64,000 bases of DNA from Qipengyuania sp. HL-TH1 (GTDB taxonomy: Bacteria > Pseudomonadota > Alphaproteobacteria > Sphingomonadales > Sphingomonadaceae), in NCBI RefSeq assembly GCF_036365825.1, contig NZ_CP142675.1, positions 1,922,001-1,986,000 of the forward strand, written 5' to 3'. The notes beneath the pieces are model-generated. The model was not told the DNA's origin, searched no databases, and worked only from the letters and a program-made list of their open reading frames with translations. Numbering within the stretch: the first letter of the stretch is position 1; every line of letters starts with the position of its first letter. Positions 6,557 through 39,119 of this stretch are shown piece by piece. The position numbers and the translations under genes were made by a program.

Positions 6557-6559
6557 CGG

Positions 6560-11983: not shown

Positions 11984-12724
11984 ATGTCCCGCATCCGCAC
12001 CCTCCCCGATCCCGATCACCTGCCTGCGCTGCGTACCGAATTCGCGCATCGTAATCCCGCGCTGGGGCTTGGCACGATCGAGCCGCCGCCGCGGATCCTG
12101 CTGCTTTACGGATCGCTGCGCGAACGCTCCTTTTCGCGGCTCGCGGTGGAGGAGGCGGCACGGCTGCTCCAATGGTTCGGCTGCGAAACGCGCATTTTCG
12201 ACCCGTCCGACCTGCCGCTGCCCGACCAGGTCGAAGGTGACGATCACCCGGCGGTGCATGAACTGCGCGAACTGTCGCTGTGGTCCGAAGGGCAGGTGTG
12301 GTGCAGCCCCGAACGCCACGGGCAGGTGACCGGTATCCTGAAGGCGCAGATCGACCATTTACCGCTGGCCATCGGGGGCCGCCGTCCGACCCAGGGCCGT
12401 ACGCTGGCGGTGATGCAGGTTTCCGCCGGATCGCAGAGCTTCAACACGATCAACACCTTGCGCGTGCTGGGCCGGTGGATGCGGATGGTGACGATCCCCA
12501 ACCAGTCGTCGATCGCCAAGGCCTATCTGGAATTCGACGAGAACGGGCGGATGAAGCCTTCGAGCTATTACGACCGTATCGTCGACGTGATGGAGGAACT
12601 GGTCCGCTTCACCGTGCTGCTTCGCCCCCATGCGAAGCAACTGGTCGACCGCTATTCCGAGCGCAAGGACCAGGACCAGCCGGTGGCGACGCATGTCGAG
12701 AAAGCGGGGCTCGCGCGCGGCTGA
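11984..12724 (+). CDS. arsH: ArsH, NADPH-dependent FMN reductase of arsenic resistance
   Basis: ArsH is a flavodoxin-like flavoprotein that oxidises trivalent organoarsenicals and has FMN reductase activity. The 246-residue protein contains the flavin-binding [10 protein letters not shown] loop (residues 43-52), the conserved segment [15 protein letters not shown] and the [18 protein letters not shown] stretch, all hallmarks of ArsH. It follows the ACR3 gene by 14 bases. The presence of arsH suggests the host meets methylated or aromatic arsenicals as well as inorganic arsenic. Start is an ATG; no strong alternative. Confidence 0.95.
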
Positions 12725-12808
12725 AGGTGCGGCGGCAGCGAGGCGGTTTCGCTTGCCGGGCCCGGTGCGTATGGGCTGGGTTCAGGCGGACGGCTTCAAG
12801 GTGCCCCT

Positions 12809-13813: not shown

Positions 13814-13815
13814 CC

Positions 13816-14622: not shown

Positions 14623-15581
14623 TGTCGCTCCAGCAATTCCTGTTTGGTCCGGTCGATGATCGTATCCGCAGCCGCCGCCAGACCGGAAGGTTCGGCCCAT
14701 ACGGTCCGGGTCCAGAGCGTTACATGCTCGGCCTGGATCGAATTCCCGTGGTTGATCGCAGCCATCTCGACCGCTTCGGCAGCCCGCGCGTTCCAGTCTT
14801 CGAGCTCGCTTGCCGAGGGTGCGCCGGGATGGATCAGCATGAACGATCCCGGCCCATAGGCAGTCAGATAGACCGCCAGCGGCGCGGGGATCGCCTGCAA
14901 CATGTCGGCCACCTGCGCCAGCAATGCTTCGCCCTTGTCCTGACCATGCGCCGCGACATAGGCCCCATAGTCGATAATCCGGACCAGGCTCAGCGCAGCG
15001 GGTCGGCCGCGCGCGCGGCAATCCGAAATGACCAGTTCGAGCACCCGGTCCTTGAGCAGATTGGTGGTCGGATCGATCAGGCTGAGCGTCAGCTGGCCCT
15101 GCCGCAGCGCGGCGTTCTGGACCCGCAAATCTTCCTCGCGCAGCGCACGCCGCTCCTGTTCGCGGCGCATCCGCAGCAGGTTCCGGATACGTGCAAGCAG
15201 CCGCATCTCGTCGATCGGTTTGGTCAGGAAGTCGTCGGCGCCCGCCATGAACGCCTGGTTGAGCGTTTCAGTGTCGTTGGTCGCAGTGAGCATCAGGATC
15301 GGCAGGTCGCGCGTGCCCTTGGCCAACCGCATCCGCGCGCAGACTTCCAGCCCGTCGATATCGGGCATCATGATGTCGAGGACAACGAGCTGGTACGGGT
15401 GTTCGGCGGTGCTATCGGCCTCGCCATCGGGGGTAATCCCGCACATCCTGAGTGCTTCAAGCCCGCCGCTGGCAATATCGATCCGGTCGAAATTGCCGCG
15501 CGCCAGCAGCGCGCGGGTGATCAGCGCGCTTTCGCGGACATCGTCGACCACGAGGATGCGGGACTGGCTGCCTTCGGTCAT
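14619..15581 (-). CDS. Response regulator with a degenerate GGDEF-like output domain
   Basis: The 320-residue protein begins with a normal receiver domain: acidic pair Asp13/Asp14, phospho-acceptor Asp69 in [11 protein letters not shown], Thr99 and Lys121 (LTKPID). A linker helix (residues 130-160) leads to a domain with the outline of a GGDEF fold ([15 protein letters not shown] start), but the active-site GGDEF position reads YGPGSFML near residue 245, so cyclase activity is not expected. It may act as a sensor or scaffold. It lies between the polytopic membrane protein and the outer-membrane protein, overlapping both by 4 bases, so it is probably tuned to polysaccharide secretion. The partner kinase could be the hybrid kinase at 21061, but this is not shown. 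Confidence 0.78.
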
Positions 15582-17044
15582 CGTGGGGCCTCGCTGCTCA
15601 ATTCATACACCCGCCATCGCGCCCCGTCATAGTGCAACCGGTAACCGGGCAGGCCTTTCTCGTACAGGGTCGGGAAGATGCGACCAACCCGGTCACTCCC
15701 GTAATCGGATTCGCGATTGCGGACGACCAGCGTGCTGGCATCGGTTCGCCCCCGGATCGAGGCGGTGCGGAATTGCTGCGTCCCGCTGGACCAGACGCCG
15801 GCGGCATCCTCGCGCAGCGCAATCACCGCAGGTGCCGCCTCGGCATCGAACAGCACGTCCTCGCGGCCCGACAGCGCGCGTGCAACACCTGCAAGTTCGG
15901 GATCGCTGACTGCCACCGGGCGGTTGGCCAGCGCCGCCTTCCAGCGCTGGGTCTCGGGCGCAGTGTCGACGCTGACGAGCAAGGCCCCGCCAATCGCGCC
16001 GGCGGCAAGCAGCAGCAGCTCCACCCGCTTGAGCCGCGCGATCGGCCAGCGCGCGACACAGGCGGCGGCTGCGGTGACACCGAAACTGGCTGCCAGCGCG
16101 GCCGAAGGAAACAGACCGAAGGACAGCGCCAGCAGCATCGCCGCCAGCACCGTCAGGAACAGCGCCAGCACTGCATAGCGCAGCGGCGCCATCCCGCGCG
16201 CGGCGAAGAAAAAGCCGATCGCGATCGGGCATACGGCGAACAGGCTAACCAGCGCGAGGCTGATATTGCGCCAGTCGGCCACCGGCACGCGGCCGGTGGG
16301 GTCGGCGCCCAGCCCGGCAGATTCCCGGCTGACCGCACCGATGAAGTCGAATGTCTGGTCGGCGAAAACCCAGTTCACATAGATGAACGAAGCGATCGAG
16401 AAGAGCACCGGGAACAGCAGCGTCAGATACATCGCTACCGGAGCAATGCGCAGCCGGTCGATCGGGATGACCAGCGCCAGGAACGGCAGGCTGGCGAATA
16501 CCAGCACCATCCCGAACGGATGCGCGAAAGCCATCAGGCACAGGCCGAGCGAGACCAGCATCAGATCGTTGACCCGTTCGCCCCGGCGCAGGCTAAACAT
16601 CCCCAGAGCGGTGAGCCACAGCCCCCAGTGGACGAGAATGAACCCGATCCCTTCGGTCGCGCCGCGCAGGAACACCGGATTGAGAGCCAGCACCGCACTG
16701 GCGGCGGAGGCTTCCCACAGCGACAATCCGTTGGCCCGGAATGCCCAGAACCATGCCAGCACGAGCGCCGCGGCTAGCACCGCGCTCAACACCGCCAGCC
16801 CGGCAGTCCCGGAGACAGGCACGAAGTGGTTGAGCCCGATCCCGGTAATATAGGGCAGCGGCGGAAAGGCAGTGACGATATCCTCGAACCGGATCAGCCC
16901 CTCGAGGCTCAGCAGCGTCCGTCCGTGCAGGTCGAGATTGCTGGCCGACACATAGCCGCGCGCATGGAGGATGAAGGCCAGCGCGACCAGCGCGATGCCC
17001 AATACGATCGGCATGGCATAGCTGGTGATCCTGCGCGCCGTCAT
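15578..17044 (-). CDS. Polytopic membrane protein, glycosyltransferase-C-like, unknown function
   Basis: The 488-residue protein has about ten to twelve hydrophobic segments (for example [20 protein letters not shown] at the N-terminus) and a soluble C-terminal domain of about 120 residues. The large first extracytoplasmic loop with [20 protein letters not shown] resembles the start of GT-C membrane glycosyltransferases, which use lipid-linked sugars, but no certain family is recognised. The ATG overlaps the stop of the family 2 glycosyltransferase (ATGA), so both are made together. It may add a modification to the polymer or take part in transport. A longer N-terminal reading would lie inside the upstream gene. 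Confidence 0.6.
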
Positions 17045-23955: not shown

Positions 23956-23960
23956 ACTGG

Positions 23961-24005
23961 TGGTTGCGGGGGTTGGATTTGAACCAACGACCTTCAGGTT
24001 ATGAG
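23961..24005 (-). other. 3' half of an initiator tRNA-Met(CAT) gene: attachment site of the island
   Basis: On the minus strand these 45 bases read exactly as the 3' half of a bacterial initiator tRNA: anticodon loop CTCATAA, stem CCTGA, variable AGGTC, T-arm GTTGG-TTCAAAT-CCAAC and acceptor CCCCGCA-A-CCA. The preceding bases, which should supply TCAGG and a CGCGGGG acceptor, do not pair; instead GCTCTG and CAGAGC form a different stem. So only the half downstream of the anticodon is tRNA. This is what integration of an element at the tRNA leaves at one end. The terminator on its 3' side is kept, so the chromosome lies to the left and the element to the right. Confidence 0.85.
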
Positions 24006-24196: not shown

Positions 24197-25363
24197 TTGC
24201 CAAAGCTGACGAAGAGACAGATCGAGGCGCTCGAGATCAAGGACAAGGACTATTTCGTCTGGGATAGCGAGCTGTCCGGTTTCGGCATTCGCGTGTTCCC
24301 AACCAGCCGCAAGCAATTCGTCCTTCAGTACCGTTTCGGCAAAACCTCGCGAAGGATGAGCCTTGGCCGATTTGGCGCAATTACACCTGACCAGGCGCGT
24401 GGTCTTGCCCTCAAGGCTCTCGTCCAGATTCGGCAGGACGTCGACCCGCAGGTGCAGAAGCGAGAAAAGAGGACAGCGCTCACGGTCCGCGATTTGGCGC
24501 AGCGGTTCGACGAGGAGCATATCGAGGTTCACCTCAAGCCCAGCACCGCCAAGGAATATCGCCGGAACCTGAAGCTCTTCATCCTCCCCGCCATTGGGCA
24601 TCTGCGCATCATCGACGTGACCCGCGCCGATATCGCCAAATATCATCACGACTGGCGGCATCGCCCCTACCAGGCGAACCGCAACATTGAGATCATCTCG
24701 AAGATGTTCAATCTTGCCGAGCTTTGGGGTCTGCGGCCCGACGGGACCAATCCGCGTAGACACATCAAGAAGTATCCGGAAAAGAAGCGTGAGCGGTATT
24801 TCTCCGCTGCGGAGCTACAGGCGATCGGTCGGGTGCTCGGTGAGATGGAAGAGGAGCGGGTGGAGTTGCCGAGCGCGATCGCAGCAGTTCGCCTGCTTCT
24901 CTTCACCGGCTGTCGGCTAGGCGAGATCATGACCCTTCGTTGGGAATATGTCGATCTGCAGGGCCGGCGTCTGCGCCTCCCAGATAGCAAGACCGGCGCT
25001 AAGGAAGTGCATCTTGGTACGGCAGCAGTCTCGGTGCTCATGAGCATTGAACGTACGATGGGTAATCCATGGGTCATCGTCGGTCGAAACGAGGGGGCAC
25101 ACCTGACCGATCTCCAGCCGTTCTGGCAGCGGGTGCGCGGTAGAGCCGGGTTAAAGAACGCCCGCATTCATGACCTCAGGCATACGTTTGCATCAGTGGC
25201 GGTCAGCAACGGTCAGAGCCTGCCGATGATCGGAAAGCTCCTAGGCCATACGCAAGTTCAGACGACTGCACGTTACGCGCATCTCGCGAGCCAGCCAGTA
25301 ATGCAGGCTGCCAACGACGTATCATCGCTCATCGCCAAACAGCTGCTCGGCGGCGCTAATTGA
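24197..25363 (+). CDS. int: Tyrosine-family site-specific integrase
   Basis: Integrates and excises the island at the tRNA site. The 388-residue protein has the N-terminal arm-binding domain common in island integrases (KDYFVWDSELSGFGIRVFPT), a core-binding domain (about 95-190) and the catalytic domain with Arg240 (TGCRLGE), a likely Lys265 (DSKTG), His325-x-x-Arg328 (HDLRHTF), His351 (LGHTQ) and nucleophile Tyr360 (TTARYAHL). All five catalytic positions are present. The start is TTG, preceded by a full AGGAGG 5 bases upstream; no ATG fits. It lies 190 bases from the tRNA remnant and reads into the island. Confidence 0.95.
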   Translation: MPKLTKRQIEALEIKDKDYFVWDSELSGFGIRVFPTSRKQFVLQYRFGKTSRRMSLGRFGAITPDQARGLALKALVQIRQDVDPQVQKREKRTALTVRDLAQRFDEEHIEVHLKPSTAKEYRRNLKLFILPAIGHLRIIDVTRADIAKYHHDWRHRPYQANRNIEIISKMFNLAELWGLRPDGTNPRRHIKKYPEKKRERYFSAAELQAIGRVLGEMEEERVELPSAIAAVRLLLFTGCRLGEIMTLRWEYVDLQGRRLRLPDSKTGAKEVHLGTAAVSVLMSIERTMGNPWVIVGRNEGAHLTDLQPFWQRVRGRAGLKNARIHDLRHTFASVAVSNGQSLPMIGKLLGHTQVQTTARYAHLASQPVMQAANDVSSLIAKQLLGGAN

Positions 25364-25831: not shown

Positions 25832-27034
25832 TTGAGCGTCAGCTTTCATAATCCGGACCAGTATATGGCATCACTGCGCACGATCATCGCGCAGGGCCGA
25901 AAGCGCGTCGGGCTGCTGGTGGGAGCGGGCGCGCCGGCGGGAATGGCGCGGGCCGACGGTTCTCGACCACTGATCCCGGCCGTCGCGGGCCTGACCGAAT
26001 TGGTTTTGAAAGCGATCGAGCCGGCCTACGGAACCCAGATCAAGGGGCTCCAGGGTGATCTCGCAAAGCACGACATCGAGACTCTGCTCTCGCGCATTCG
26101 TTCGCTCGGCAGCGTTATCGGAACCACCAAGGTCCACGAGCTCGACGCCGATGGATATCGCGCGATGGCCAATGCCATCTGCGTCGAAATCGGCAAGATC
26201 GTCCAGGCGCGCCTCCCCGCGGGATCCACGGCTTACGGGGAACTCGTCAGCTGGATCACCGGTGCTCCCAGAGCGCATGCGGTCGAGATTTTTACGACGA
26301 ACTACGACTTGCTCTTCGAGGAAGCGTTCGAGCGGGTCCGGGCACCCTATTTCGATGGCTTCGCCGGAGCGCGCGAAGCGTTTTTCGATCCGGCCTCGGT
26401 TTCCGGAGATCAGCTCTCCTCGCGTTGGACACGCCTGTGGAAGATCCATGGCTCGCTTGGCTGGAAGGCGAACGCCGAAGGCGAAGTCGTGCGGACCGGG
26501 CAGACGGATTCGACCCACCTGATCTTTCCCGAGCACATGAAATACGATCAGACGCAAAAAGCGCCCTATGCCGCATTGCTCGATCGCTTGCGCAGCTTCC
26601 TCGCGACCGAAGATACGCTGTTGATCTCGATCGGCTTCTCCTATGCCGATGCGCATATCACGGCCCGGATCGACGAGGCGCTCGCCGCCAACCCGGCGGC
26701 GAGCGTGTTTGCGTTCCAATTCCAGAAACTCGAACAGGAGCCATGTGCCGTGGCGCTCGCGTCCCGGCGTCCCAATGTCAGCGTCTATGCGCGCGACAAG
26801 GCAGTCATCAACGGCGTTGCCGCCCCTTGGCAGACCCCCGGCGAGCTTCCCACCAAGGATTGGGGGCCGATCCGGAACAGCTACTGGGCCGCACCCGCGA
26901 AGGGAGGCGAGCCCGAGTTCAAACTTGGTGCAATAGAAGATTTCGCGCGGTTCTTTGCCAATTCCCAGACACCGCAGGCCTTCGAGGCTGCGCCGGCTCC
27001 GGCAGTGCCTCCTGCGCCCGCGGCCACCGAATGA
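25832..27034 (+). CDS. SIR2-like NADase (SIR2_2 type), first gene of the five-gene defence operon
   Basis: Bacterial SIR2-like proteins paired with HerA deplete NAD+ on phage infection. The 400-residue protein has the Rossmann signature LLVGAGAPAG (28-37), TTNYD (155-159, catalytic Asn157), KIHGSLGW (204-211, catalytic His206) and GFSYADAHI (about 273-281). Both catalytic positions are kept, so NADase activity is expected. The tail is Ala/Pro-rich (APAPAVPPAPAATE). Start is TTG, 3 bases after GGGGGAGAGGAA; an ATG 11 codons later is an alternative. The stop overlaps the HerA start by ATGA, so the pair is translated together. This alone would be a SIR2-HerA system; the three genes that follow are the unusual part. 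Confidence 0.9.
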   Translation: MSVSFHNPDQYMASLRTIIAQGRKRVGLLVGAGAPAGMARADGSRPLIPAVAGLTELVLKAIEPAYGTQIKGLQGDLAKHDIETLLSRIRSLGSVIGTTKVHELDADGYRAMANAICVEIGKIVQARLPAGSTAYGELVSWITGAPRAHAVEIFTTNYDLLFEEAFERVRAPYFDGFAGAREAFFDPASVSGDQLSSRWTRLWKIHGSLGWKANAEGEVVRTGQTDSTHLIFPEHMKYDQTQKAPYAALLDRLRSFLATEDTLLISIGFSYADAHITARIDEALAANPAASVFAFQFQKLEQEPCAVALASRRPNVSVYARDKAVINGVAAPWQTPGELPTKDWGPIRNSYWAAPAKGGEPEFKLGAIEDFARFFANSQTPQAFEAAPAPAVPPAPAATE

Positions 27035-28827
27035 CCAGCCCGACCTTTCTTGGCAGGGTAGGTAGTGTCGCGGGGTCGACCGTTAGCGTGCGGCAGGCCG
27101 AGTCCGTCGCTTCGGGCATCGCAATCATCGAGGGGCGCAGCTATCGGGTTGCGCAAGTGGCAAGCTTCGTTCGCATACCCCAAGGCTACCACGATCTGTA
27201 TGGCGTGATCTCCGAGGTGGGTGCTCAAGCCACTCCCGAAACACTGGTCGACGCCCGTCAACGCGGCGAGAGCTGGATGACCGTTCAACTCGTCGGTGAA
27301 ATCGTCGAAACCAGTTTCGAGCGGGGCATCAGCCAATATCCCGGGATCAACGATGAGGTCCATCTGGTAACCGAAGAGGATCTCGGCCGGATCTACGGTG
27401 TGGGCGACGAGGGCCAGATCACGATCGGGCGGCTCGCCGGGGCAGAGAGCATTCCCGTCCGCATCGATCTCGACCGGTTGGTGACCCGTCACAGCGCAGT
27501 TCTCGGCTCGACCGGGTCGGGCAAATCGACAACGATTGCCAGCCTGCTGCGTTCGATTTGCCATTCCGGCGGAGGAAAGCGCTGCTCGAGCGCGCGTATC
27601 CTCCTTCTCGACATTCATGGCGAATATGGCGATGCGCTCAAATCGGCAGCGCAGGTGTTCCGGGTCAACCCATCCGACGACGAGCAGCCGCTTCACGTAC
27701 CGTATTGGGCGCTCGACACGCTGACGCTGCTCGATTTCCTGATGGGGCCAATGAGCGAGACGGCCCTGACCGGCGTGCTCGACAAAATTCAGGTGGCCAA
27801 GCTTGCGGTGGCTGAGGGCGTCGCCGGAGTCGATGTCAATGCCCTGACCATCAACACCCCGCTACCCTTCAGCCTGAGGCAGCTCTGGGCAGACCTGGTC
27901 GATCCCGAATACAAGACCTGGGCGGATAAGGAGCGGACCAGCCCGGCGCTTGAGGAGGCAGGCGATGCGCAAAGTCTGAAGCTGCCAAAATACTCGCCGC
28001 CGGGTCCAGGCAGCGCCTTGCCCGATATCAACCAGACCAATGTCTTGGGTATCAAGCGGCAGCTTACCCAGATGCGCTCGCGCCTGCTCGACCGGCAATA
28101 TGACTTCATGCTGCACCCTGGCGAGTGGGAGCCCGATCTCGCGGGCAAGTCGCAGATGGATTTGCCGGAACTGCTCGAGGCCTGGTTCGGTCACGACAAG
28201 CCGATCACCGTGCTCGATCTGTCAGGCGTGCCAAGCCAGGTTCTGGTCCGGCTGATCGGTGGAATCTTGAACATCACCTACGAAGCGATGTTCTGGGGCC
28301 GGAACCTGCCCGAAGGCGGGCGCAACCGGCCGGAACTGGTCGTCATGGAGGAAGCACATCGTTATCTGGGCCGGGACGCGGATAATCCGGCGCGCGACAT
28401 GGTCCAACGAATTGTCAAGGAGGGGCGCAAGTTCGGGGTCGGGGCAATGATCGTCAGCCAGCGCCCTTCAGAGATCGACGAAACGATCCTGTCGCAGTGC
28501 GGTACGCAGTTCGCCCTGCGCCTGTCGAACAACGCCGACCAGGGCAAGGTGAAGGCGGCGCTCCCGGACAGCCTCAGCGGACTCGTCGATACCCTTCCGG
28601 TGCTGAGGACCGGGGAGGCGATCATCATGGGTGAGGCCGCGCGCCTGCCGATCCGCTGCCGGATCAACTTGCCACCGGAAGGTGAACGACCGTCGAGCGC
28701 GGATCCCATGGTAAGCGCGGCTTGGGCGAAGGCCAAAGCGAAAGAAGATTATGAGCGGCTCGCCGCCGCCTGGAGGTCACAGGATCCCAAGTGGGGTCAG
28801 GACAACAACACGCAGGAGAACGGATGA
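27031..28827 (+). CDS. herA: HerA-like hexameric DNA-translocating ATPase
   Basis: HerA/FtsK-superfamily motor. The 598-residue protein has an N-terminal HAS-barrel (about 1-125, FLGRVGSVAGSTVSV), Walker A GSTGSGKST (159-167), the HerA-specific LLLDIHGEYG (191-200), Walker B ELVVMEEAHRYLG (435-447) and the sensor SQRPSEID (476-483). In archaea HerA partners the NurA nuclease together with Mre11-Rad50 to resect DNA ends; in bacteria it partners SIR2 or DUF4297 effectors in defence. Here it overlaps the SIR2 gene before it and the KTSC gene after it (ATGA both times). The likely assembly is a HerA hexamer capped by SIR2 subunits; this is inference from the known SIR2-HerA complexes. Confidence 0.93.
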   Translation: MTSPTFLGRVGSVAGSTVSVRQAESVASGIAIIEGRSYRVAQVASFVRIPQGYHDLYGVISEVGAQATPETLVDARQRGESWMTVQLVGEIVETSFERGISQYPGINDEVHLVTEEDLGRIYGVGDEGQITIGRLAGAESIPVRIDLDRLVTRHSAVLGSTGSGKSTTIASLLRSICHSGGGKRCSSARILLLDIHGEYGDALKSAAQVFRVNPSDDEQPLHVPYWALDTLTLLDFLMGPMSETALTGVLDKIQVAKLAVAEGVAGVDVNALTINTPLPFSLRQLWADLVDPEYKTWADKERTSPALEEAGDAQSLKLPKYSPPGPGSALPDINQTNVLGIKRQLTQMRSRLLDRQYDFMLHPGEWEPDLAGKSQMDLPELLEAWFGHDKPITVLDLSGVPSQVLVRLIGGILNITYEAMFWGRNLPEGGRNRPELVVMEEAHRYLGRDADNPARDMVQRIVKEGRKFGVGAMIVSQRPSEIDETILSQCGTQFALRLSNNADQGKVKAALPDSLSGLVDTLPVLRTGEAIIMGEAARLPIRCRINLPPEGERPSSADPMVSAAWAKAKAKEDYERLAAAWRSQDPKWGQDNNTQENG

Positions 28828-29036
28828 TGCAACGCCAACCGGTCAGTTCGAGCAACATAGCGTCCATCGGCTACGATGAAGCGACGCAAACCCTGGAGGT
28901 CGAGTTCCTCAACAACAGCGTCTACCAATATTTAAACGTGCCGCCGAATATCCACGACGAACTCATGGCGGCGCCGTCCCACGGCGTCTACCTGAATGCC
29001 AATGTCAAGAACCACTACGCCTACGAGCGGCTCTGA
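28824..29036 (+). CDS. Small KTSC-domain protein
   Basis: A 70-residue protein that is essentially one KTSC domain (named for its relation to the lysyl-tRNA synthetase C-terminus): VSSSNIASIGYDEATQTLEV, then FLNNSVYQYLNVPPNIHDEL and LNANVKNHYAYERL. KTSC proteins occur alone in many genomes and their role is not settled; nucleic-acid binding has been suggested by the fold. The start is the first of two adjacent ATGs, overlapping the HerA stop; GGAG lies 7 bases upstream. Its place inside the operon, with tight spacing on both sides, points to a working part of the system and not a passenger. Confidence 0.88.
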   Translation: MMQRQPVSSSNIASIGYDEATQTLEVEFLNNSVYQYLNVPPNIHDELMAAPSHGVYLNANVKNHYAYERL

Positions 29037-29048
29037 CGGATTCTTCCG

Positions 29049-30173
29049 ATGATCCGGGTTGTGCACAGCGCCGACTGGCAATTGGGAAAGCCCTTCGGTC
29101 GTTTTCCCGATGACGTTCGCGCTGCCTTGATGGAGGCGCGGCTCGACGTCATCGATAGGATCGCCGCAGTTGCCGATGACCATGAAGCGCGCCACGTGCT
29201 CGTCGCAGGCGATGTCTTCGACAATATCGACCCAGGCGATCGCGTGCTGGTGCAGGCCCTTTCCCGCATGGAGCGGGCGAAGGTGCACTGGTGGCTCATG
29301 CCGGGCAATCACGACCATGTGCGTTCAGGCGGATTGTGGGGGCGTGTGCGTGCGAAAGCGTCGGCCAATGTCCACGTGCTCGATACGTTCGAACCGGTCG
29401 AACTGGAGGACGGTGCCTGGCTGCTGCCTGCCCCGCTCGATCATCGCCGCACACGCGATGATCCGACGAGCTATTTGGCCGATATGGCGACGCCTGCCGG
29501 GGCGGTCCGGATCGGGTTGGCGCACGGCTCGATCACCGAGTTCGGCGGCAGCAGCGAAGCGACCAACATTATCCCGCCGGACCGCGCGCAGACCGCCCAA
29601 CTCGACTATCTGGCGCTCGGCGATTGGCACAGTCATCTGCAGGTCAACGATAGGACCGCTTACAGCGGTACGCCGGAAACCGATCGCTTCCGCGGCGACG
29701 ACGAGCCGGGCAGCGTTATCGTGGCCGAGATATCCCAGGGCGTGGCACCGCGTCTCGAGCGCGTATCGACCGGCCGGTTCCGCTGGCTGAGCCAGACTTG
29801 GCCGCTCGAAAATCACGCGGAGTTCGTGCGTCGTGTGACTGCCTTCAAACAGGAGGCCGATCTCTCCAAAACCTTGCTTCGGCTTACCCTGACCGGCGCC
29901 GTCTCGCTGTCCGATCGGGTCCAGGTGCAAGCCGCGCTGACCGACGATCTCGCCCATGCTCTGCGGTGGCTGGACGCCGACAGCGAGCAGCTCCTGGTTC
30001 GGCCGACACAGGATGACCTTGCCAATATCGACGTGCAGGGAACGCTGGCAAAGGCCGCCGCGAGCCTGCAAGCACAGGTGGACGCCGGCGGGGAGGGCGC
30101 GGCACTCGCGAGCAACGCGCTCGAGCGACTCTACGTAGAAGCGCTCCGGCTGGCGGACGAGCAACCGGCATGA
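29049..30173 (+). CDS. Mre11/SbcD-like metallophosphoesterase (YhaO-type nuclease subunit)
   Basis: Calcineurin-like DNA nuclease subunit, partner of the Rad50-like gene that follows. The 374-residue protein has motif I HSADWQLGKPF (Asp9; the His of the usual DxH is replaced by Gln11), motif II GDVFD (54-58), motif III GNHDH (86-90), AHG (158-160) and motif V GDWHSH (191-196). So most metal ligands are kept and nuclease activity is expected, with an altered first site as in other YhaO-type proteins. The C-terminal 150 residues would be the capping and Rad50-binding part. It starts 12 bases after the KTSC gene and overlaps the next by ATGA. Confidence 0.9.
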   Translation: MIRVVHSADWQLGKPFGRFPDDVRAALMEARLDVIDRIAAVADDHEARHVLVAGDVFDNIDPGDRVLVQALSRMERAKVHWWLMPGNHDHVRSGGLWGRVRAKASANVHVLDTFEPVELEDGAWLLPAPLDHRRTRDDPTSYLADMATPAGAVRIGLAHGSITEFGGSSEATNIIPPDRAQTAQLDYLALGDWHSHLQVNDRTAYSGTPETDRFRGDDEPGSVIVAEISQGVAPRLERVSTGRFRWLSQTWPLENHAEFVRRVTAFKQEADLSKTLLRLTLTGAVSLSDRVQVQAALTDDLAHALRWLDADSEQLLVRPTQDDLANIDVQGTLAKAAASLQAQVDAGGEGAALASNALERLYVEALRLADEQPA

Positions 30174-32797
30174 AACTCCGTTCGCTCGAGTTGGAGAACT
30201 TTCGCAAATTTCGAAAGCCGATCCGGCTGGACGGCTTCGCCGACGGGCTCAACATCATCATCGAACCGAACGAGATGGGCAAATCAACCCTGCTCGAGGC
30301 TCTGCGGGCCGCCTTCTTCATCCGTCACTCCGCGAAAAGCGAACTGGTTCGATCCTATTGCCCGTTCGGCGACGACGTGGCTCCCAAAGTGGGCGTGGCG
30401 TTCGATATCGGCGATCAGCACTGGCAGCTCGAAAAGCAATTTCTCAAATCGCCGCACATCCGGCTGACCGGCAACGGGAGCCGGATCGAGAGCGACGCGG
30501 CCGAAGAGCGCCTGCAAGCGCTGCTCGGATTCGAACGGGGCAATAACCGTGGCAGCGACCTGGACACGCGCGGCGTGCTCGGCCTCTTGTGGGTCGAACA
30601 GGCCACGGCACTGTCGGCCGAACCGCCGGGCCGGGTCGCACGCGACGAGATCCGCGCGGCGCTCGAAGGCGAGGTTGGGGCAATCCTCGGGGGCAAGAAA
30701 TTCGACCGTATCTGCGAGCGGATCGAGGAATCCTATGGCGCATTGCGCACATTGCGCGCCGGCAAGCCCACCGGCAAACTGGCGGAAGCCGAAGCCAAGC
30801 TGGCCGCGGCGCGGACCGACGTGGCCGAAGCGCAGGAAAGGGTGTCTGAATACCAGGACTCGCTAGCGGAGTTGGAGAGCGCGCAAACGAGAAAGCGCTT
30901 GATTGAACGCGACCTCGCGGATCCCGAACAGGCCGAACGGCGTGCGAAATTGTCCGACGAGCTCAAACTGGCCGAGAACGCGCAATTGCGCCTTTCAACC
31001 GCGGAAGCCCGGCACGCGGAAGCCGAAGCGACGGTGCAAACGACCCAAGCCGAACTCAACCGGCTCGATGACGCGACACAGCGGCTGCAGGCCGCAGAAC
31101 AGGCGCTCGCGGACGCACGCGCGGCCGTGGAGGATCATCAGACCGAATTCGAAACCGTCGCGGCGGACGAGCAGGAAAAGCGCGAGGCCGCCGGCCAAGC
31201 GCGCACTGCGCGGGCGAAGGCGGAGCAGGAGCTCCAGCAGGCGCGTCGGGCAATGGTGGAACACAACCGCCAAGTCGCCATCGAGCGCGCACGCGAGCAC
31301 CTTGCCGAGATTCTCAAGCTTGAAGCTGCGCTCGCCGAAAGGCGACCGCTCGCAGAAGGCGTGATTGCAGATGAGCGACTACAGAAGCTGGCTGCACTCG
31401 ACAGAGCCGTCGCCGAAGCGCGCGCGGTCCAGGCCGCGGGCGCGATAACCCTCGATATCGATCTCGTCGGCTCCGCCTCTGTGCAGATCGACGGCGTGGA
31501 TGTCGCCTCGGGCCGGCGCGAAGTAGCCAAACCGATCGAGGTTCTCGTTCCCGACATCGCGCGGATCGGCATCTCCCCGCCGGCGGGAGCGAGATCGGCC
31601 GAAGCGCAGCTTCGCTCAGCCGAGGAGGCGTTTTCGACTGAACTCGGCGAACTTGGCGTCGCCAGCTATGCAGCTGCCGTGACGCGCGATCAAACCGCGC
31701 GGGCCGCCAAGCAGGACATTGCTGCTCTCGAGCGCCAAATCGAGATGAGTTGTCCGGGCGACCCGGTGCTCGAACTCAAGGCGGGTGTCGGGCCGCTCAA
31801 GGCCTTGATAGCAAGCCTGCCGGCCGCTGCCGACGCTGGCGCGGTGCCGGCCGACCTGTCAGAGTTGGAGACAGCGTTCGATGGCATGCGCGAAGCCGAG
31901 GAGATCGCTGCGGCCGTCCTCGACGAAGCCCAGAAGGCGCTTCGAGCCGCCGAGATCGCACACACCAAGCTCGAGGCGAACCACGTCGCAGCAACTCACA
32001 ATGCGGCGACGGCCCGAACCCTCCTCGATGAGCAAGCGGACCAGGAACGCAGCGCGATCGACCAACGGTTGCAAACGGCGCGCGAAGAACTCGGCCGGCG
32101 CGCGGCGCAGCTTTCGGAGGCGCAGGCCACTGTTGCCAACCTCGATATCGATCGGATCCGGCGAGCGATCTCCAACATCGACGTGGCCCAGCGCCAAGCG
32201 AGCGAAGAGCGGGTTCAGCTCGTGGCCCGCATCGCTTCCTTGGAGTTTCTGGTCGCGCGGGAAGGTCCGAAAGGCCCGCCCGGCATTCTTGCGGAGGCGG
32301 TCGAAGCCGAGGCCGTGGCGGAAGCGGAAGTGGCGCGATGGACGCGCGAGGCGGATGTACTGGCCCTGTTGAGGGACGCTCTGCGTGAAGCGGCGGAGGA
32401 TACCTCGCGCACTTTTCTGGGGCCGGTGACACGGCGGGCGGCGCGCTATGTGAACCGCATACTGCCCGAGTGCGATCTGACGTTTGACGAAACGATGGGA
32501 TTGACCGCGATTCACCGAAATGGAGTGGAGGAACCCTGCGTCGATCTGAGCCGCGGAACTCAGGAGCAGCTGGCGGTTCTCACGCGCTTGGCCTTTGCGG
32601 ACCTGTTGCTCGAGACAGGCGCCCCGGTTTCGCTAATCCTCGACGATCCGTTCGTCTATTCTGACGACGAACGCTTGGAAGTTATGACCGACATTCTGCT
32701 TGAAGCATCGAAGCGAATGCAGGTTATTTTGCTAACCTGCCGTTCCAAGGCTTTCCGGCATGTGGTCGGAAATCGGATATCGCTGGATCAGGCATAG
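30170..32797 (+). CDS. Rad50/SbcC-like SMC-family ATPase (YhaN-type)
   Basis: An 875-residue ATPase with split head and long coiled coil. N-terminal Walker A EPNEMGKST (32-40); C-terminal ABC signature LSRGTQEQ (793-800), Walker B SLILDDPF (about 821-828) and a final strand VILLTCRSKAF. Between them lie about 600 residues of heptad-rich helix. The middle (about residues 425-475) is not a CxxC zinc hook but a beta-rich patch (AITLDIDLVGSASVQIDGVD), so dimerisation there would differ from Rad50. The ATGA overlap with the Mre11-like gene shows a functional pair. It is the last gene of the operon; the next gene starts 157 bases later. Short for SbcC (about 1000), normal for YhaN. Confidence 0.9.
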   Translation: MKLRSLELENFRKFRKPIRLDGFADGLNIIIEPNEMGKSTLLEALRAAFFIRHSAKSELVRSYCPFGDDVAPKVGVAFDIGDQHWQLEKQFLKSPHIRLTGNGSRIESDAAEERLQALLGFERGNNRGSDLDTRGVLGLLWVEQATALSAEPPGRVARDEIRAALEGEVGAILGGKKFDRICERIEESYGALRTLRAGKPTGKLAEAEAKLAAARTDVAEAQERVSEYQDSLAELESAQTRKRLIERDLADPEQAERRAKLSDELKLAENAQLRLSTAEARHAEAEATVQTTQAELNRLDDATQRLQAAEQALADARAAVEDHQTEFETVAADEQEKREAAGQARTARAKAEQELQQARRAMVEHNRQVAIERAREHLAEILKLEAALAERRPLAEGVIADERLQKLAALDRAVAEARAVQAAGAITLDIDLVGSASVQIDGVDVASGRREVAKPIEVLVPDIARIGISPPAGARSAEAQLRSAEEAFSTELGELGVASYAAAVTRDQTARAAKQDIAALERQIEMSCPGDPVLELKAGVGPLKALIASLPAAADAGAVPADLSELETAFDGMREAEEIAAAVLDEAQKALRAAEIAHTKLEANHVAATHNAATARTLLDEQADQERSAIDQRLQTAREELGRRAAQLSEAQATVANLDIDRIRRAISNIDVAQRQASEERVQLVARIASLEFLVAREGPKGPPGILAEAVEAEAVAEAEVARWTREADVLALLRDALREAAEDTSRTFLGPVTRRAARYVNRILPECDLTFDETMGLTAIHRNGVEEPCVDLSRGTQEQLAVLTRLAFADLLLETGAPVSLILDDPFVYSDDERLEVMTDILLEASKRMQVILLTCRSKAFRHVVGNRISLDQA

Positions 32798-32954
32798 CCG
32801 TGATCTGTAGCGACAATTCTCCGTGAGTGTCGGCTCTCGCCTGCAAGAGCGCCCATCCTCGCTTCCATTTCTCACCAGAACAGCGGACGTCTGAGTAAAA
32901 TCTGCGCGTCTTTCGTTGCAGTTCGGCCGATTCTTCCGCCACAACAACGAACAT

Positions 32955-35900
32955 ATGACGAACTCCACTCCAAACACGGCCAAGACTGCGCCTGCCGACG
33001 GAGAGCGCCGTGCTCTGCGAAACCTGTCGGCGCAATATCAGGTAGCGGCGAAACTTATCTACACGTCGCTGTTGGACGGTGAGCTCGAATGGATCCGTCT
33101 CGTTGATCCAGACGCCGAACGTCTTGACGACATCGTGATCGGCCGTCCTGGTAGGGTGGATGCATATCAGGTCAAGTGGTCTGAATACCGGGGTCAGATC
33201 ACATTTCACCGCCTGGTAACCCCGACCAAGGTTTCGGGCAAACCGTATCCAGCACCGTTTACTCTGCTCGCTGAAGGATGGCGTGCCCTTAGTGGGGTCT
33301 ACCCCGACCGAGCCGTACACGCCCATTTCCTCACACATGACGCACCTTCTTCCAATGACGGCAAGAAGAAAGCCGGCGCAGGTGATCCTGAGCACCTTCA
33401 GGGCTTTCTGCGCCATGCTTGGCCGACGCGTCACAGCTGGCACAGCACTGCGCGCGCTAACTTTCGCGATACTTGGCAACTCCGCATAGACGCCATTGCT
33501 GCTTGCGCGGGTTATTCCGGCGCGGAGTTGGACCGATTTCTTGCACATTGCGAACTCGATCTGGGCTTCGATCTTCAAGAAGCTCAAGGAACCGGAGCGC
33601 ACCAGGACGACAAGGACGTCGTTGACTTGGCTCACTTTCTGGCTGCACAGGCCGCCGCCAGCGCGGGCGTGGTCAAGTTCACACGCGCCGAATTGCTCCG
33701 CGGCATGGGCTGGTCCGGTCGCTTCGAATTTGCATTCAAACACGATTTTCCCGTTGACGAGAGGCTCTATCGACCAGTCGAAGAAACGGTGCGGGCGATC
33801 GGCGAAGCAATTGAGCAGCATGATCGAGGCTACATCGCACTTATCGGCCCTCCTGGTTCGGGGAAATCAACGGCTCTCACGCATACGTTGCGATATGCGA
33901 GAGGCATCCGTCTGGTGCGCTATTATGCCTTTGTGCGCGACGATCCCCGTCCCGGCAGAGGTGAAGCAACAGCATTCCTCCATGATCTTTGCCTATCTCT
34001 CGAACCCCTCGCACCTAGAGCGGCCCGGAGGCGCGCTCGCGATGACAATCTCGACAGCTTGCGAGAGGAGATGGCGGCGCTTCTCGCCGAGCTTTCCGCA
34101 GATTGGACGAATTCAGGTATCAAGACTGTAATCCTAGTCGATGGCTTGGATCATATCGCGCGAGAGCAAAATCCTGTCCGCTCGCTAGTCGAGGAGCTAC
34201 CACGGCCCGACGCCATTCCCGACGGTGTCCTTATCATACTTGGCACGCAGCGCGTCGGCTTGCAGAGCAACGCCGCAACATTGCGACCGATTACCGCACA
34301 ACTTGAGCAGCATGGCCGTACGCTGGAAATGGAACGGCTGTCGCGCGCAAGCGTCCGCAGCATTGTTCAAACCGCGCTCGAACCCGAGTTGTTAGCGCCC
34401 GGTGCGTATGAACAGATAGAGAATTTGAGCGCCGGGCATCCGCTTGCACTCGCTTACCTCCTAAAGCGCCTCGCGACGGCAAGCGATGCGACGGCTGTCG
34501 GCGAAATCCTCCATGCAGCGAGTACATATGACGGCGAGATTGAGGCTGACTACCGCATCTATTGGGAAACGCTCAGTGACCAGCCCGATGTACGAGATCT
34601 TCTCGGGCTCATCGCGAGGTTACGCGGCGCAATCGACCTTTCCACCGTCGAAGCGGTGGCCTCATCACGTATCCTTGAGAGATTTGTAGCAACGGCGAGT
34701 CACTATTTCCACCAGGATACCGCAACTACTTGGCGGTTCTTCCATAACAGCTTCCGCCAGTTCGTATTGGACATAACTGCGCGCAATGCCCTGAACAGAC
34801 CGGACCCGGCCGCCTCCGTTGATTTCCACAGGCGTCTCGCTGAGGCCGGTGCCAGGGAGGAGGCGAGCCGGCAGCTCGAATGGGAACGCTTATTTCATCT
34901 CGACCACGCGGGCCGGACGGATCTGCTTCTCAAACTTGATCATCAACCTCTTTTTAGAAGCCAGTTTCTCAACGGCCGCGCCGATTGGGAGATCAAAGAC
35001 GACATCGATCGGTGCATGCGCGTCGCTGCGAATGTCGGCGACGCCATGGCAGTACTCGGCCTCATGCTTGCGCAGAAGGAACTCGGCGACCGCATCAGCG
35101 CGTTTGAACTAATCAATCTCGCCACCTTGGAGTTGAGATTGCGGCCTCCGCAGGATCGTGCGAGCGCCCTTATAGCGGGACCCGAACTACTCGTTCCTGA
35201 TCATGTTGCAATCGAATGGGCGTCCCGACTCTTGGAGGAGGGCGATCCAGCGCTAGCAAATAGAGTTTTCGACATGGCCGAGCCACTCGATTTCCTATCC
35301 GGAGTTCGAGCAGTCGATGCCTCCGGGCACAATGAAGCGCTGACGGCATGGGCGAAGGTGTCATGGCGCTTTCGACCACTGGAAGTTCTCGTCGCGGCGG
35401 CTATGCAAGTGAGAGTCGACGTGCTCGCGTCCGATATCCCGCCCCCTTATGAAGATCAGAAGCGAGCGAATTTTGGCGCAAGGCGTCATGTATTGGCCGA
35501 GATGGCCGAGGCGCTGCTTGATGCAGAAGAAACCGCTCTCCTCGACCAATTGTTCGCGCTCATCGACGACTTTGTCGAAGCGGTTGATCTCGACCTTCGG
35601 CTTGACGTGTCCCGTGTCCGGCGTGCGATCCGCGGTGTCGGAAACACACAACTCGGTGCAGATGCGCTGAACCGAATTCTGTCGGCCAAGCCACCGGAGA
35701 GCCTCAACGCCATTGAGGCAGTTCGTGTGGCCGATCTCATTTGCGGTCTTGAAATAGATCCTGAGCGGGCAGACTCTTATCTTGCTGTCGCGTCCGGACC
35801 AATCATCGCCAACCAGCTAGACGCTCCTGATGACGACCCGTTCTCGGCGGTGGAACCTCTTTTCCGACAGGCGCGGGCACAAGCAGCTCGGGTTAGACCT

Positions 35901-38900
35901 TTCGATCCTGCGACCGATATTCCCGAACCCGAACGGATACATGGCTTGGGCTCCGTTCTTTTCCAACGAGCCGTAGTACGCGTGGCGAACGTCTGGGGCT
36001 ACGCGCGTTCGGGCAGGACGATGTCACCCGGCGAAGCGGTTCGTCAGTTGCGCCCCGTCGTCCGGCTATTCCGTCGTTCCTTCGGGGAAACACATCGATG
36101 GCTTGATTGGCACTATGCGCAGCGCGCGTCGGGTCAGTTGTTCGAACATATGCTGTTGGCAGCGCACGCTCATGGCAGGGAGGCCTTCCAAGCGGTGCTC
36201 GAAGCGACCATTGAGGATTGGTCCCGCAAAGATCGCGACCTGATCGGATGGAGCCCCGAGACCCGCCGGGCGATTGCGCTCGCCGCGCATCGACTCGACG
36301 GAGACGAAGAAAGGACCATCGGCATCCTCATCGGTCTGGATAGCGGCACCGATATCGAGTTCGAGCTATATGACAGAGTCGAACAATGGCGCGAATCGAT
36401 GGAGGCGTGGCTCGAAGTCGGCATGCGGGAACGGGCAAGGCAATCGCGCGACGCGATGCTGGCAACCAGCTTCGGAATTTATATCGACCGCGACGACCAG
36501 ATCGAAGACTGGGCGAAGATTGCCGCTGGCGCAATCGGGAGGGAAGATAAGCCGGAAGTACTGGAGGATACCGCACGGACGATCCTCACTATCCTGCGCG
36601 TACTCAACAGGTGCCGCAGGGGCGGCGGGCGCGACGATGCGGTGCGAACGATCCTATCCACTTTGTCCGGATTGGACCCGGCAGGAGCACTTCTCGCTGC
36701 AGACTGGTTGCTTGATGGTAATGGTGCGGCGCGCACAGATGTCCTGACCGGCCTAGCGATCGGACAGCTTGCATCATCCGACCCGGACATCATCGCCAAT
36801 GCGCTGACGGCAACCAGCCGGCTCATTCTTCCATTTGAACTCAGTTCCACAACTGAACTGGGCGGCGCGCTCGCCGATGTCGCTGGCGGACAATGGTTCT
36901 CCCACCCGCGTGTTAGTGAAGGACTCGAGCTTGCGCGGAGAACCATCCGCGCAAGGGTTCAGCACAGACGTGCGTTCGACGACTTTTTGGGGGTGGAGCG
37001 AACTCCGCGGCGAGAACGAGGTGAGGACAAGGATCCATCGGGAATGCTAACATGCAGCGATGGAACCATTCTGACGCAGGCGCAGGTGGAAACGCTGGCA
37101 TCAAAGCCTGAGGCCCTTGCAAAGTCTCTGTGCGGCGCCACGCCTTCCAAAATGCATTGGCAGCCGGTCATCGCGGCGCTCCCCGAAACGATTGACCGGT
37201 CTACGCTTCACGCAATTGGCGAATGGATTGTTTCGGCGGGCACGACGGCCTTTGCATTACGTGATCTTGTTCGTCGCGCCTCCTTGCTTGGCGATCGAGA
37301 TCTTTCCGAGAAAGCAACAGCGGCAGCCATAGCCGGCTCCAATCGCGGAGGCTGGCTTCCGGGATATGACGGTGGCAGCCGTCTCGCCGCAGCCGAATGT
37401 CTTGCCATCAGCGACCCCGAGCGTGGCAGGCGCCGCGCGCTCGAATTGTTGGTGGACGATCATATTGAACGGCCCCTTGCGGTGCGCGATCTAGTTGCCT
37501 CAATCGAAAGCATCCTGCCGTTCATTTCCGATACGACCGATCCGCGAAGAGTCTGGTCAGAGTTGCGCAAGCACGTAGGGGCCCTGGCGGAGATTACCGA
37601 AAACCCCGATCACGCGCCGTCCCTTATGAATGCAAGCAATATTGCTCCCGGAGAATTGAGTTCGATCCTGATTCTGCGCGATATCGATCACCACGCTAAC
37701 GCCTTGGCATGGGAAGCGCGCAAAGGTCTTCTTGCCTTACTAATGTCGGGCGACCCGAATGACTTTGCGCGTAACGGCTTGCGAGATGCCCTAGGTGGCG
37801 ATCTAAACCGCCGTACGGCCGCACTCGCGACTATTTCGTGCCTCGCCTGGTCGCATCCTGGTCTCGTGGGAGACCTGGCCGAGCTTGTGCGCCCGATGGC
37901 GTGGGACACCCACGGTGTTGTAAGGCGGCTCGCACAGCAAATCCTGCTCGATCTGAACGAAGAGCTTCCCGAGGCTCCCCCGGAGCGCGGTCTCCCTCCC
38001 ATCTACAGCTTGCATCTCCCCGAAACCCAGATGCCCGACCGCAGCCTGCACGGATCGGATATTCCGCGCGGCGAGCCGCTCCCGGACACAGAGGACAGCG
38101 TCGATCTTTCTCGACTCTTTCACGACGCATTCCGGTTGATCGAAGGCTGGAGCGGAATCCCATTCGCGAATTTGGCGCGAAGGTTCGCCCAAATCATGCA
38201 TCGCATTGCGCCACCTGACACTTGGTCGGCCGCCGCCGAGCGCAAACTCACCAGCCATCTCGAGGCGATCGGGTTGAAGGTCAGCGTCCGGCGTCCCCGC
38301 TCACTGGTATCGCATCAGGCTTTTGGGGTCCTCCTCGCAGAGATGTGCGACGCGGGTGTGTTCGAGTGGCCGGTCGATATCTTTGATAGCAATCTGCTTC
38401 TGACTGATCCCTATATCGACACGCGCGACCCAGATCCCAAACCAGATTGGCTCGATGTTCCATCCGGCAAGGCACTCGGCGCCTATCCACGTGAAGATTG
38501 GCTTCGAGACGTCGGCGACGCTTTGCCGACACTCCGGAAGCTGCCTGATGGCCGCATCGTCCTTGCCGAATGGACACAGGCTGTGAGCCTCGACAGCGAT
38601 CGGGAAGAAGAAAGTCGCGTGTCGATCATGGCCCATCCGCAGATGACGCTCGGCGAGGGTACGCCCAATTTGTACCGGCTTTGGCGCGACAGCGACTACA
38701 TCGGCCGAGAATACCCAATGCTCTTTCGGCAGCGAGGACGCCCAGTTGCCGCTGTTGCCGGTGGTCCCATGTTCAGCGACGCGGATTTCCTGGCGCTCAA
38801 TCCGCAAATAGGTTTCGCTCTTAACTGGGAGGTCGCAGACGAGGGGCTATTTCGGTGGGTTGATTCTGCGGGCAAAGTGATGACGGAAAGCGTTTGGTGG

Positions 38901-39119
38901 CAAGATGGCAATCTCTTCGTGAATGACCATTCGGGTCTCGACGAAGCTGCTTATCAGGGCTGGCTCGTGCTGGTCTCACCTGAGGGTTGGAGCCAACTTC
39001 GGCCAAAAATCGCGAATTTCCTTGTACATCGATCCGCGGGGCGGAGCGCGCCTGACAGCAAGAGTCCAGATGGAGAAATGCTTGCCGTTCACGTCGATAG
39101 CCAGCCGCTCCCGTTCTAA
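32955..39119 (+). CDS. Giant STAND NTPase with N-terminal nuclease-like domain (Avs-like antiviral protein)
   Basis: A single-gene defence candidate of 2054 residues. The first 100 residues look like a PD-(D/E)xK/Cap4-type nuclease: Tyr/Ala-rich helix, LEWIRLVDPDAERLDD (Asp58/Asp59) and VDAYQVKWSE (Gln72, Lys74). A STAND NTPase follows: Walker A GPPGSGKST (298-306) and Walker B VILVDGLDHI (392-401), with a winged-helix segment (WRFFHNSFRQFVLD). The remaining 1400 residues are alpha-helical without a clear repeat unit, as in Avs sensors that bind phage terminase or portal. The target here is unknown. Start: ATG giving MTNSTPN; a TTG 13 codons upstream is possible. It appears to be transcribed separately from the five-gene operon. 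Confidence 0.8.
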   Translation: MTNSTPNTAKTAPADGERRALRNLSAQYQVAAKLIYTSLLDGELEWIRLVDPDAERLDDIVIGRPGRVDAYQVKWSEYRGQITFHRLVTPTKVSGKPYPAPFTLLAEGWRALSGVYPDRAVHAHFLTHDAPSSNDGKKKAGAGDPEHLQGFLRHAWPTRHSWHSTARANFRDTWQLRIDAIAACAGYSGAELDRFLAHCELDLGFDLQEAQGTGAHQDDKDVVDLAHFLAAQAAASAGVVKFTRAELLRGMGWSGRFEFAFKHDFPVDERLYRPVEETVRAIGEAIEQHDRGYIALIGPPGSGKSTALTHTLRYARGIRLVRYYAFVRDDPRPGRGEATAFLHDLCLSLEPLAPRAARRRARDDNLDSLREEMAALLAELSADWTNSGIKTVILVDGLDHIAREQNPVRSLVEELPRPDAIPDGVLIILGTQRVGLQSNAATLRPITAQLEQHGRTLEMERLSRASVRSIVQTALEPELLAPGAYEQIENLSAGHPLALAYLLKRLATASDATAVGEILHAASTYDGEIEADYRIYWETLSDQPDVRDLLGLIARLRGAIDLSTVEAVASSRILERFVATASHYFHQDTATTWRFFHNSFRQFVLDITARNALNRPDPAASVDFHRRLAEAGAREEASRQLEWERLFHLDHAGRTDLLLKLDHQPLFRSQFLNGRADWEIKDDIDRCMRVAANVGDAMAVLGLMLAQKELGDRISAFELINLATLELRLRPPQDRASALIAGPELLVPDHVAIEWASRLLEEGDPALANRVFDMAEPLDFLSGVRAVDASGHNEALTAWAKVSWRFRPLEVLVAAAMQVRVDVLASDIPPPYEDQKRANFGARRHVLAEMAEALLDAEETALLDQLFALIDDFVEAVDLDLRLDVSRVRRAIRGVGNTQLGADALNRILSAKPPESLNAIEAVRVADLICGLEIDPERADSYLAVASGPIIANQLDAPDDDPFSAVEPLFRQARAQAARVRPFDPATDIPEPERIHGLGSVLFQRAVVRVANVWGYARSGRTMSPGEAVRQLRPVVRLFRRSFGETHRWLDWHYAQRASGQLFEHMLLAAHAHGREAFQAVLEATIEDWSRKDRDLIGWSPETRRAIALAAHRLDGDEERTIGILIGLDSGTDIEFELYDRVEQWRESMEAWLEVGMRERARQSRDAMLATSFGIYIDRDDQIEDWAKIAAGAIGREDKPEVLEDTARTILTILRVLNRCRRGGGRDDAVRTILSTLSGLDPAGALLAADWLLDGNGAARTDVLTGLAIGQLASSDPDIIANALTATSRLILPFELSSTTELGGALADVAGGQWFSHPRVSEGLELARRTIRARVQHRRAFDDFLGVERTPRRERGEDKDPSGMLTCSDGTILTQAQVETLASKPEALAKSLCGATPSKMHWQPVIAALPETIDRSTLHAIGEWIVSAGTTAFALRDLVRRASLLGDRDLSEKATAAAIAGSNRGGWLPGYDGGSRLAAAECLAISDPERGRRRALELLVDDHIERPLAVRDLVASIESILPFISDTTDPRRVWSELRKHVGALAEITENPDHAPSLMNASNIAPGELSSILILRDIDHHANALAWEARKGLLALLMSGDPNDFARNGLRDALGGDLNRRTAALATISCLAWSHPGLVGDLAELVRPMAWDTHGVVRRLAQQILLDLNEELPEAPPERGLPPIYSLHLPETQMPDRSLHGSDIPRGEPLPDTEDSVDLSRLFHDAFRLIEGWSGIPFANLARRFAQIMHRIAPPDTWSAAAERKLTSHLEAIGLKVSVRRPRSLVSHQAFGVLLAEMCDAGVFEWPVDIFDSNLLLTDPYIDTRDPDPKPDWLDVPSGKALGAYPREDWLRDVGDALPTLRKLPDGRIVLAEWTQAVSLDSDREEESRVSIMAHPQMTLGEGTPNLYRLWRDSDYIGREYPMLFRQRGRPVAAVAGGPMFSDADFLALNPQIGFALNWEVADEGLFRWVDSAGKVMTESVWWQDGNLFVNDHSGLDEAAYQGWLVLVSPEGWSQLRPKIANFLVHRSAGRSAPDSKSPDGEMLAVHVDSQPLPF

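Follow-up and report, generated by a model that had tools for sequence, protein, structure and literature searches.

A SIR2-HerA-KTSC defence module and an adjoining Mre11-Rad50-like gene pair on an integrative element of Qipengyuania

Several described systems resemble parts of the locus analysed here. In the SIR2-HerA system Nezha, which forms a 12:6 complex, immunity to phage depends on HerA and on the active site of SIR2, and a related SIR2-herA pair still conferred resistance to two phage isolates after the rest of its island had been deleted (PMC11559045). Iyer and co-workers had already noted HerA in the company of an endoDNase and of a KTSC protein that binds DNA (PMC9503650). For Sulfolobus, co-precipitation of Rad50, Mre11 and HerA is reported, with the purified proteins too, indicating direct binding (PMC2288612). 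In Lamassu, the Rad50-like protein LmuB is paired with many effectors, SIR2 among them, and may sense hairpin DNA (PMC10586767). Here we describe a five-gene locus encoding SIR2-, HerA-, KTSC-, Mre11- and Rad50-like proteins in a 64,000-nucleotide stretch of Qipengyuania sp. HL-TH1 (positions 1,922,001 to 1,986,000 of contig NZ_CP142675.1; hereafter the window), whose genome comprises 3.33 Mb in two contigs with a completeness of 100. To our knowledge, the way in which SIR2-HerA and DUF4297-HerA systems perceive an infection is not settled.

The five genes are two modules rather than one conserved five-gene system. We think it fairly probable, judging from sequence comparisons, that a complete SIR2-HerA-KTSC module is functionally coupled here to an exchangeable Mre11-Rad50-like DNA-end nuclease pair, with which it apparently shares one transcription unit. 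While the SIR2-HerA core is already known, its recurrent linkage to Mre11-Rad50-type pairs appears to be undescribed.

A SIR2-HerA-KTSC core followed by a Mre11-Rad50-like pair

All five open reading frames (ORFs) were found on the + strand of the window (Table 1). Direct reading of the junctions places ATGA overlaps at 27031 (SIR2/HerA), 28824 (HerA/KTSC) and 30170 (Mre11/Rad50), and a 12-base gap separates the KTSC stop codon (29034-29036) from the Mre11-like ATG at 29049. The HerA start within the overlap agrees with the family alignment; the mechanically called ORF opens earlier, at 26425. The first-pass annotation of this DNA had described the same overlaps and gap, and had recognised two modules otherwise known apart; both observations held up.

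Table 1. Features of the five-gene locus and of the surrounding element (window numbering)
Feature	Position	Strand	Remarks
SIR2-family NADase-like effector	25832..27034	+	TTG start, 400 amino acids (aa)
HerA-type ATPase/translocase	27031..28827	+	598 aa, ATGA overlap with SIR2 gene
KTSC protein	28824..29036	+	70 aa, start codon ATG at 28824; third component of SIR2-HerA core
Mre11/SbcD-like metallophosphoesterase	29049..30173	+	374 aa
Rad50/SMC-like ATPase	30170..32797	+	875 aa, without CxxC zinc hook
Left attachment repeat, 47-bp truncated copy of tRNA-Met 3' end	23959..24005	-	exact repeat
Right repeat at intact tRNA-Met	64926-64972 (contig 1986926-1986972)		just beyond window end
Tyrosine integrase, left end of element	24197..25363	+	Pfam Phage_integrase and arm-binding domain
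2067-aa Avs1b-like NTPase protein	32916..39119	+	119 bases 3' of Rad50

The SIR2 protein matches Pfam SIR2_2 and, over residues 4-392, the PADLOC SIR2 model PDLC04094 (644 bits); HerA carries the Pfam domains DUF87 and HerA_C and matches the PADLOC HerA model PDLC04105 end to end (527 bits). Profiles built from relatives of each protein agree with solved structures, at 427 bits over residues 3-384 for SIR2 (8w9l) and 805 bits for HerA (8wiv), and both profiles matched the entries 8wld, 8woc, 8wod and 8wof. SIR2 residues N157, D159 and H206, which we take to be catalytic, are invariant in 29/29 alignment rows. SIR2-HerA had been assigned beforehand to the defence systems that deplete nicotinamide adenine dinucleotide (NAD), and the matches to PADLOC models and to the solved complex are in line with this. 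With KTSC, it is a complete anti-phage module of known kind, for which NAD depletion and phage protection are predicted here by homology. Among phage records, HerA relatives turned up in 2 of 50,697, at 25-29% identity.

The KTSC protein (Pfam KTSC, 92 bits) stands between the modules, as the first-pass annotation had noted. We rejected a role as their linker because of a constant tie to HerA. A HerA alignment scan with one genome per species gave 574 relatives; among the best 80, the 42 loci closest to the window HerA all have KTSC, after HerA in 40 and fused to it in 2, and the 38 more distant ones have none (0/38). SIR2 lies upstream of HerA in 41 of these 42 near loci, the remaining contig beginning within HerA. 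The viral scan (27 loci) included 11 near loci, partly redundant (L149-L151 are alike, as are L153-L154), in which KTSC follows HerA in 10/11 and is fused in 1/11. The three fusions (L069, 359-2572; L072, 9980-12043; viral L152, 1128-3239) resemble the solved HerA 8wiv, whose C-terminal residues 628-696 match the KTSC profile with 97 bits; the profile also matches the stand-alone KTSC chains 7x8c and 4rgi. KTSC likewise accompanied HerA in 12/12 plasmid regions fetched from 621 records with HerA (HerA is interrupted in one), to which one region from the 637 records of a second search was added, and the plasmid examples range from alpha- and gammaproteobacteria as far as Natrinema, a haloarchaeon. 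KTSC is easily overlooked as a separate gene; because of the HerA-KTSC fusions and of the solved HerA with a KTSC tail, it belongs in any test of this SIR2-HerA subfamily.

Directly 3' of KTSC, six core loci (L065, 9102-10139; L077; L082; L087; L095; L108) encode members of a family of ~345-aa proteins sharing 46-72% identity, five of them without a Pfam match and one with a sub-threshold match to PDDEXK_15. A homologue occurs in 10 of 73 other core loci, and an optional fourth component of SIR2-HerA-KTSC is one possible role for this protein.

In the second module, the Mre11-like protein matches Metallophos (28 bits), NCBIfam sbcd (51 bits, under the cut-off of 77.65) and SbcD structures (up to 74 bits), and the Rad50-like protein matches AAA_15 (48 bits), AAA_27 (26 bits) and a Rad50 head structure (57 bits). 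Motifs of the latter that are again presumably catalytic (GKS of Walker A, S/G of the signature, DD of Walker B) are kept in 41/41 rows, in keeping with the earlier claim that catalytic residues look intact in the SIR2 and SMC-like proteins. The metal ligands of the Mre11-like protein depart from the usual ones, the window included: D-x-Q takes the place of D-x-H in 31/37 rows and G-D-x-H that of G-H-x-H in 36/37, and a CxxC zinc hook at the coiled-coil apex was found in 0/41 Rad50-like rows. The DxQ/GDxH ligands and the missing hook mark a separate subfamily, one that might either cut DNA or mainly sense it. Membership in Lamassu was considered and rejected, as the best LmuB match reached only 40 bits over part of the protein and none of the five genes matched LmuA.

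Partners of the pair and distribution of the core

Joins between effector-HerA modules and Mre11-Rad50-type pairs recur in several unrelated ways. In L039 and L212, which are near-identical to each other, another SIR2-HerA comes after the pair, on its strand and with a 100-base gap; in L116, a deltaproteobacterial metagenome-assembled genome (MAG) whose contig ends inside Rad50, another SIR2-HerA directly precedes it. DUF4297-HerA follows the pair on the same strand in L201 (38-base gap), L206 (35-base gap), L227 and L228, and the two tested matched PADLOC DUF4297 with 140 (L206) and 124 bits (L227). Pairs of other types take part as well: SIR2-HerA precedes a YhaO/YhaN-type pair in the Nitrospira MAG L132 (AAA_27, 220 bits) and an SbcCD-type pair in the viral-collection contig L301. 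As a side observation, L227 and L228, two sphingomonad plasmids, carry AbiEi-AbiEii, Mre11-Rad50, DUF4297-HerA, VWA and PP2C-like genes in a row (6021-16425), the last two of which may be a further module.

The L301 case could be compared with L299, a second contig of the viral collection; both are metagenome contigs. From base 8997, the start codon of SbcD, onward, the two are 90-91% identical in DNA, with SbcD proteins 95% identical, and upstream of that codon no similarity was found between them. What lies there is SIR2-HerA in L301 and a PDC-S06 protein (1090 bits) in L299, each with an ATGA overlap with the SbcD start. On the evidence of these two sequences, the difference is best described as a cassette exchange at the SbcD start codon.

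This exchange bears on a serious rival explanation, which we regard as less likely than not, namely that core and pair are plain defence-island neighbours: two independent systems placed by chance on one strand of a mobile element, with no functional coupling. Such neighbours would fit the five-gene order being unique to the window, a pair that is mostly without HerA, and a next gene that encodes another defence-like (Avs1b-like) protein. The exchange at the SbcD start codon speaks against it, as does the fact that other HerA modules (L201, L206, L039, L212) again lie on the strand of the pair, 35-100 bases away.

Frequencies in related genomes also argue against mere clustering. Among 396 family genomes (the window's own excluded), the pair is present in 19, an effector-type HerA in 10 and the two together in 5 (one-sided Fisher test, p=3e-5; p=3e-4 once a near-identical couple is merged), and pair and HerA are adjacent in 4 of the 5. 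Effector-type HerA here means a match stronger than the HerA that nearly all members carry, taken as housekeeping; one of the ten genomes (G053) has no recognised effector upstream, and a genome outside the ten that has a SIR2-like gene (G025) falls below the line. OLD-type genes serve as a yardstick: they occur in 12/39 family genomes (E<=1e-3; 10/39 over the Pfam cut-off) against 11/397 for effector-type HerA, own genome counted in both, and are thus about ten times as common, yet the pair lies near OLD and near effector-type HerA equally often (4 loci each in the family sample, own excluded), with the caveat that the OLD rate comes from the Pfam model and the OLD neighbours from a hidden Markov model (HMM) of our own. 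We take the co-occurrence of pair and effector-type HerA beyond island clustering to be suggestive, not proof.

Further partners of the pair match defence models without HerA. PDC-S06 accompanies the window-type pair in L033, L035 and L043, an OLD/GajA-like gene is found on the same strand in L031, L042 and L202 and convergent in L207, L210 and L211, and a Ppl-like gene in L205; in L213 (3269-9229, 11-base gap) and L214 (376-6417, overlap), a Hhe/PDC-S37-like helicase-nuclease gene lies directly 5' of the Mre11-like gene. These other partners count against the composite five-gene system first proposed. When 46 Mre11 rows are placed on a maximum-likelihood tree, their partner labels change 17 times overall, a point on the side of island neighbours; SIR2-HerA-KTSC accounts for 3, SIR2-HerA for 2 and DUF4297-HerA for 3. 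The changes of these three labels are forced by well-supported branches, each being a gain or a loss, and neighbour classes were assigned with small HMMs built in this analysis. A label denotes a partner no more than 9 kb from Mre11, which need not be the next gene (OLD in L225 is two genes off). The tree leaves out L199 (same record as L032), L045, L054, L055, L056, L132, L203, L219, L220 and L221, and L050 and L226 were lost through ORF tiling.

The Mre11-like gene itself is sporadic. Counting the window's own genome, it was present in 12/196 genomes of the order (E<=1e-3; 5 at 1e-60 or better), 16/385 of the class and 20/397 of the family (E<=1e-20), and in 118 plasmid records, of which 13 regions were fetched, with two more from 190 found with the L116 query. 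In viral contigs, a single Mre11-like protein as query found no relatives; an alignment query brought up a single near pair (L277/L306), beside which no partner was recognised. Being common on plasmids, the pair might alternatively serve DNA repair, forming with HerA-SIR2 an end-resection unit for plasmid or element DNA in which SIR2 stands for NurA, as the interaction of archaeal Mre11, Rad50 and HerA (PMC2288612) would allow. We consider this highly improbable, given the sporadic distribution in the family, the match of SIR2 and HerA to defence models and to a solved SIR2-HerA complex, and the defence models matched by the pair's partners elsewhere.

Seen from the core, association with the pair is rare. 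The first-pass annotation had proposed a composite system of all five proteins and had itself counted an order seen only here as evidence against it; the ATGA overlaps and the 12-base gap would suit a single five-protein machine specific to this order. The order recurs in 0 of 73 other core SIR2-HerA-KTSC loci, 11 of whose contigs end within 4 kb 3' of KTSC, and in 71 of the 73 no window-type pair lies within 6 kb. Together with the related SIR2-herA that kept resistance without the rest of its island (PMC11559045), this led us to reject an obligate five-gene system, and we give such a machine very little chance. What remains of the proposed functional link is its modular form, in which effector-HerA and Mre11-Rad50-type modules join repeatedly.

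We return to our preferred reading, the coupling of the core to an exchangeable pair, to weigh what counts against it, beginning with the missing recurrence of the order. The two core loci that do have the window-type pair within 6 kb, on the Sphingomonas AAP5 plasmid L064 and in the Aquimonas MAG L097, have it convergent, and it is therefore not in one operon with the core; in a third, L059, the SbcD-like gene within 6 kb is of another kind. The ~345-aa gene is found near KTSC in more core loci than the pair is (10/73 versus 2/73). Most examined pairs are without an adjacent SIR2-HerA, no partner was recognised by the models used in 22/46 tree rows, and OLD, PDC-S06, Hhe and Ppl show that the pair is also joined to non-HerA defence genes. 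In the co-occurrence test, some of the loci used to train the HerA profile were linked ones and only three candidates per genome were scored, and clustering in defence islands could account for the linkage signal in part or in full. The L301 SbcC ORF is split (714 + 262 aa, versus 1085 aa in L299), such that this SbcCD copy may be broken or misassembled. Finally, with its non-canonical active site, nuclease activity of the Mre11-like protein is not certain.

The integrative element and its other genes

The operon begins 1.8 kb inside a 41-kb tRNA-borne integrative element, bounded by the repeats listed in Table 1. The long gene downstream of Rad50 is probably a separate defence gene: its product matches PADLOC Avs1b with 95 bits over residues 295-719 only, with no other PADLOC match at E<=1e-3. 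A relation of this protein to the 1986-aa Hhe-like protein of L213 was tried and rejected, only a short ATP-binding motif being shared (E=0.13). Further to the right, the element holds ORFs that by eye look like esterase, MFS transporter, TonB-receptor and acyl-CoA genes.

Proposed mechanism and comparison with known systems

If core and pair are indeed coupled, the Mre11-Rad50-like pair would recognise or open phage DNA ends, be they free, hairpin or protein-blocked, during infection. HerA with KTSC could then load on, or be switched by, that DNA, upon which SIR2 on the HerA ring would drain NAD+. The pair would widen or sharpen triggering and may itself cut phage DNA; the core could work without it.

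The pair is elsewhere repeatedly joined to different defence genes, which suggests that immune effectors may take up nuclease pairs of this sort as exchangeable partners. More broadly, and only tentatively, we propose that Mre11-Rad50-type pairs of the window, YhaO/YhaN and SbcCD types might serve bacterial immunity as general units for recognising DNA ends that can be exchanged between systems. By cassette exchange they would dock to SIR2-HerA, DUF4297-HerA, PDC-S06, OLD, Ppl or Hhe modules, comparable to the pairing of LmuB with various effectors in Lamassu, and on meeting abnormal DNA ends they would license the attached effector. Should several HerA effectors share a DNA-end nuclease pair as a recurring partner, DNA ends could be tested as their trigger. 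Within the titles and abstract openings that our literature search covered (most subscription papers fell outside its scope), no bacterial SIR2-HerA or DUF4297-HerA joined to Mre11-Rad50 was found.

Compared with Nezha, the window has SIR2 followed by HerA of the same families, with matches to 8w9l and 8wiv, and differs in having KTSC as a gene of its own and a Mre11-Rad50-like pair downstream. DUF4297-HerA shares the effector-HerA architecture and follows the same kind of pair in L201, L206, L227 and L228; its effector is DUF4297, not SIR2, and Mre11/Rad50 are unmentioned in the accessible main text of its description (PMC11291478). The HerA-KTSC-endoDNase set of Iyer and co-workers likewise links HerA with an effector and with KTSC as a DNA-binding protein, with Mre11-Rad50 unmentioned in the accessible part of that source (PMC9503650). 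The archaeal HerA-NurA-Mre11-Rad50 set also unites HerA with Mre11 and Rad50, whereas the window has SIR2 instead of NurA (no Pfam NurA match among the five genes) and a Rad50-like protein without zinc hook. With SbcCD and YhaO-YhaN, the window pair shares a metallophosphoesterase and an SMC-like ATPase in adjacent genes, and is set apart by its altered metal ligands, the lack of a CxxC hook and its short (875 aa) ATPase. Lamassu, lastly, is alike in combining a Rad50/SMC-like protein with exchangeable effectors, SIR2 included, and unlike in its components, which the accessible part of its description gives as LmuA, LmuB and LmuC, with no Mre11 or HerA named (PMC10586767).

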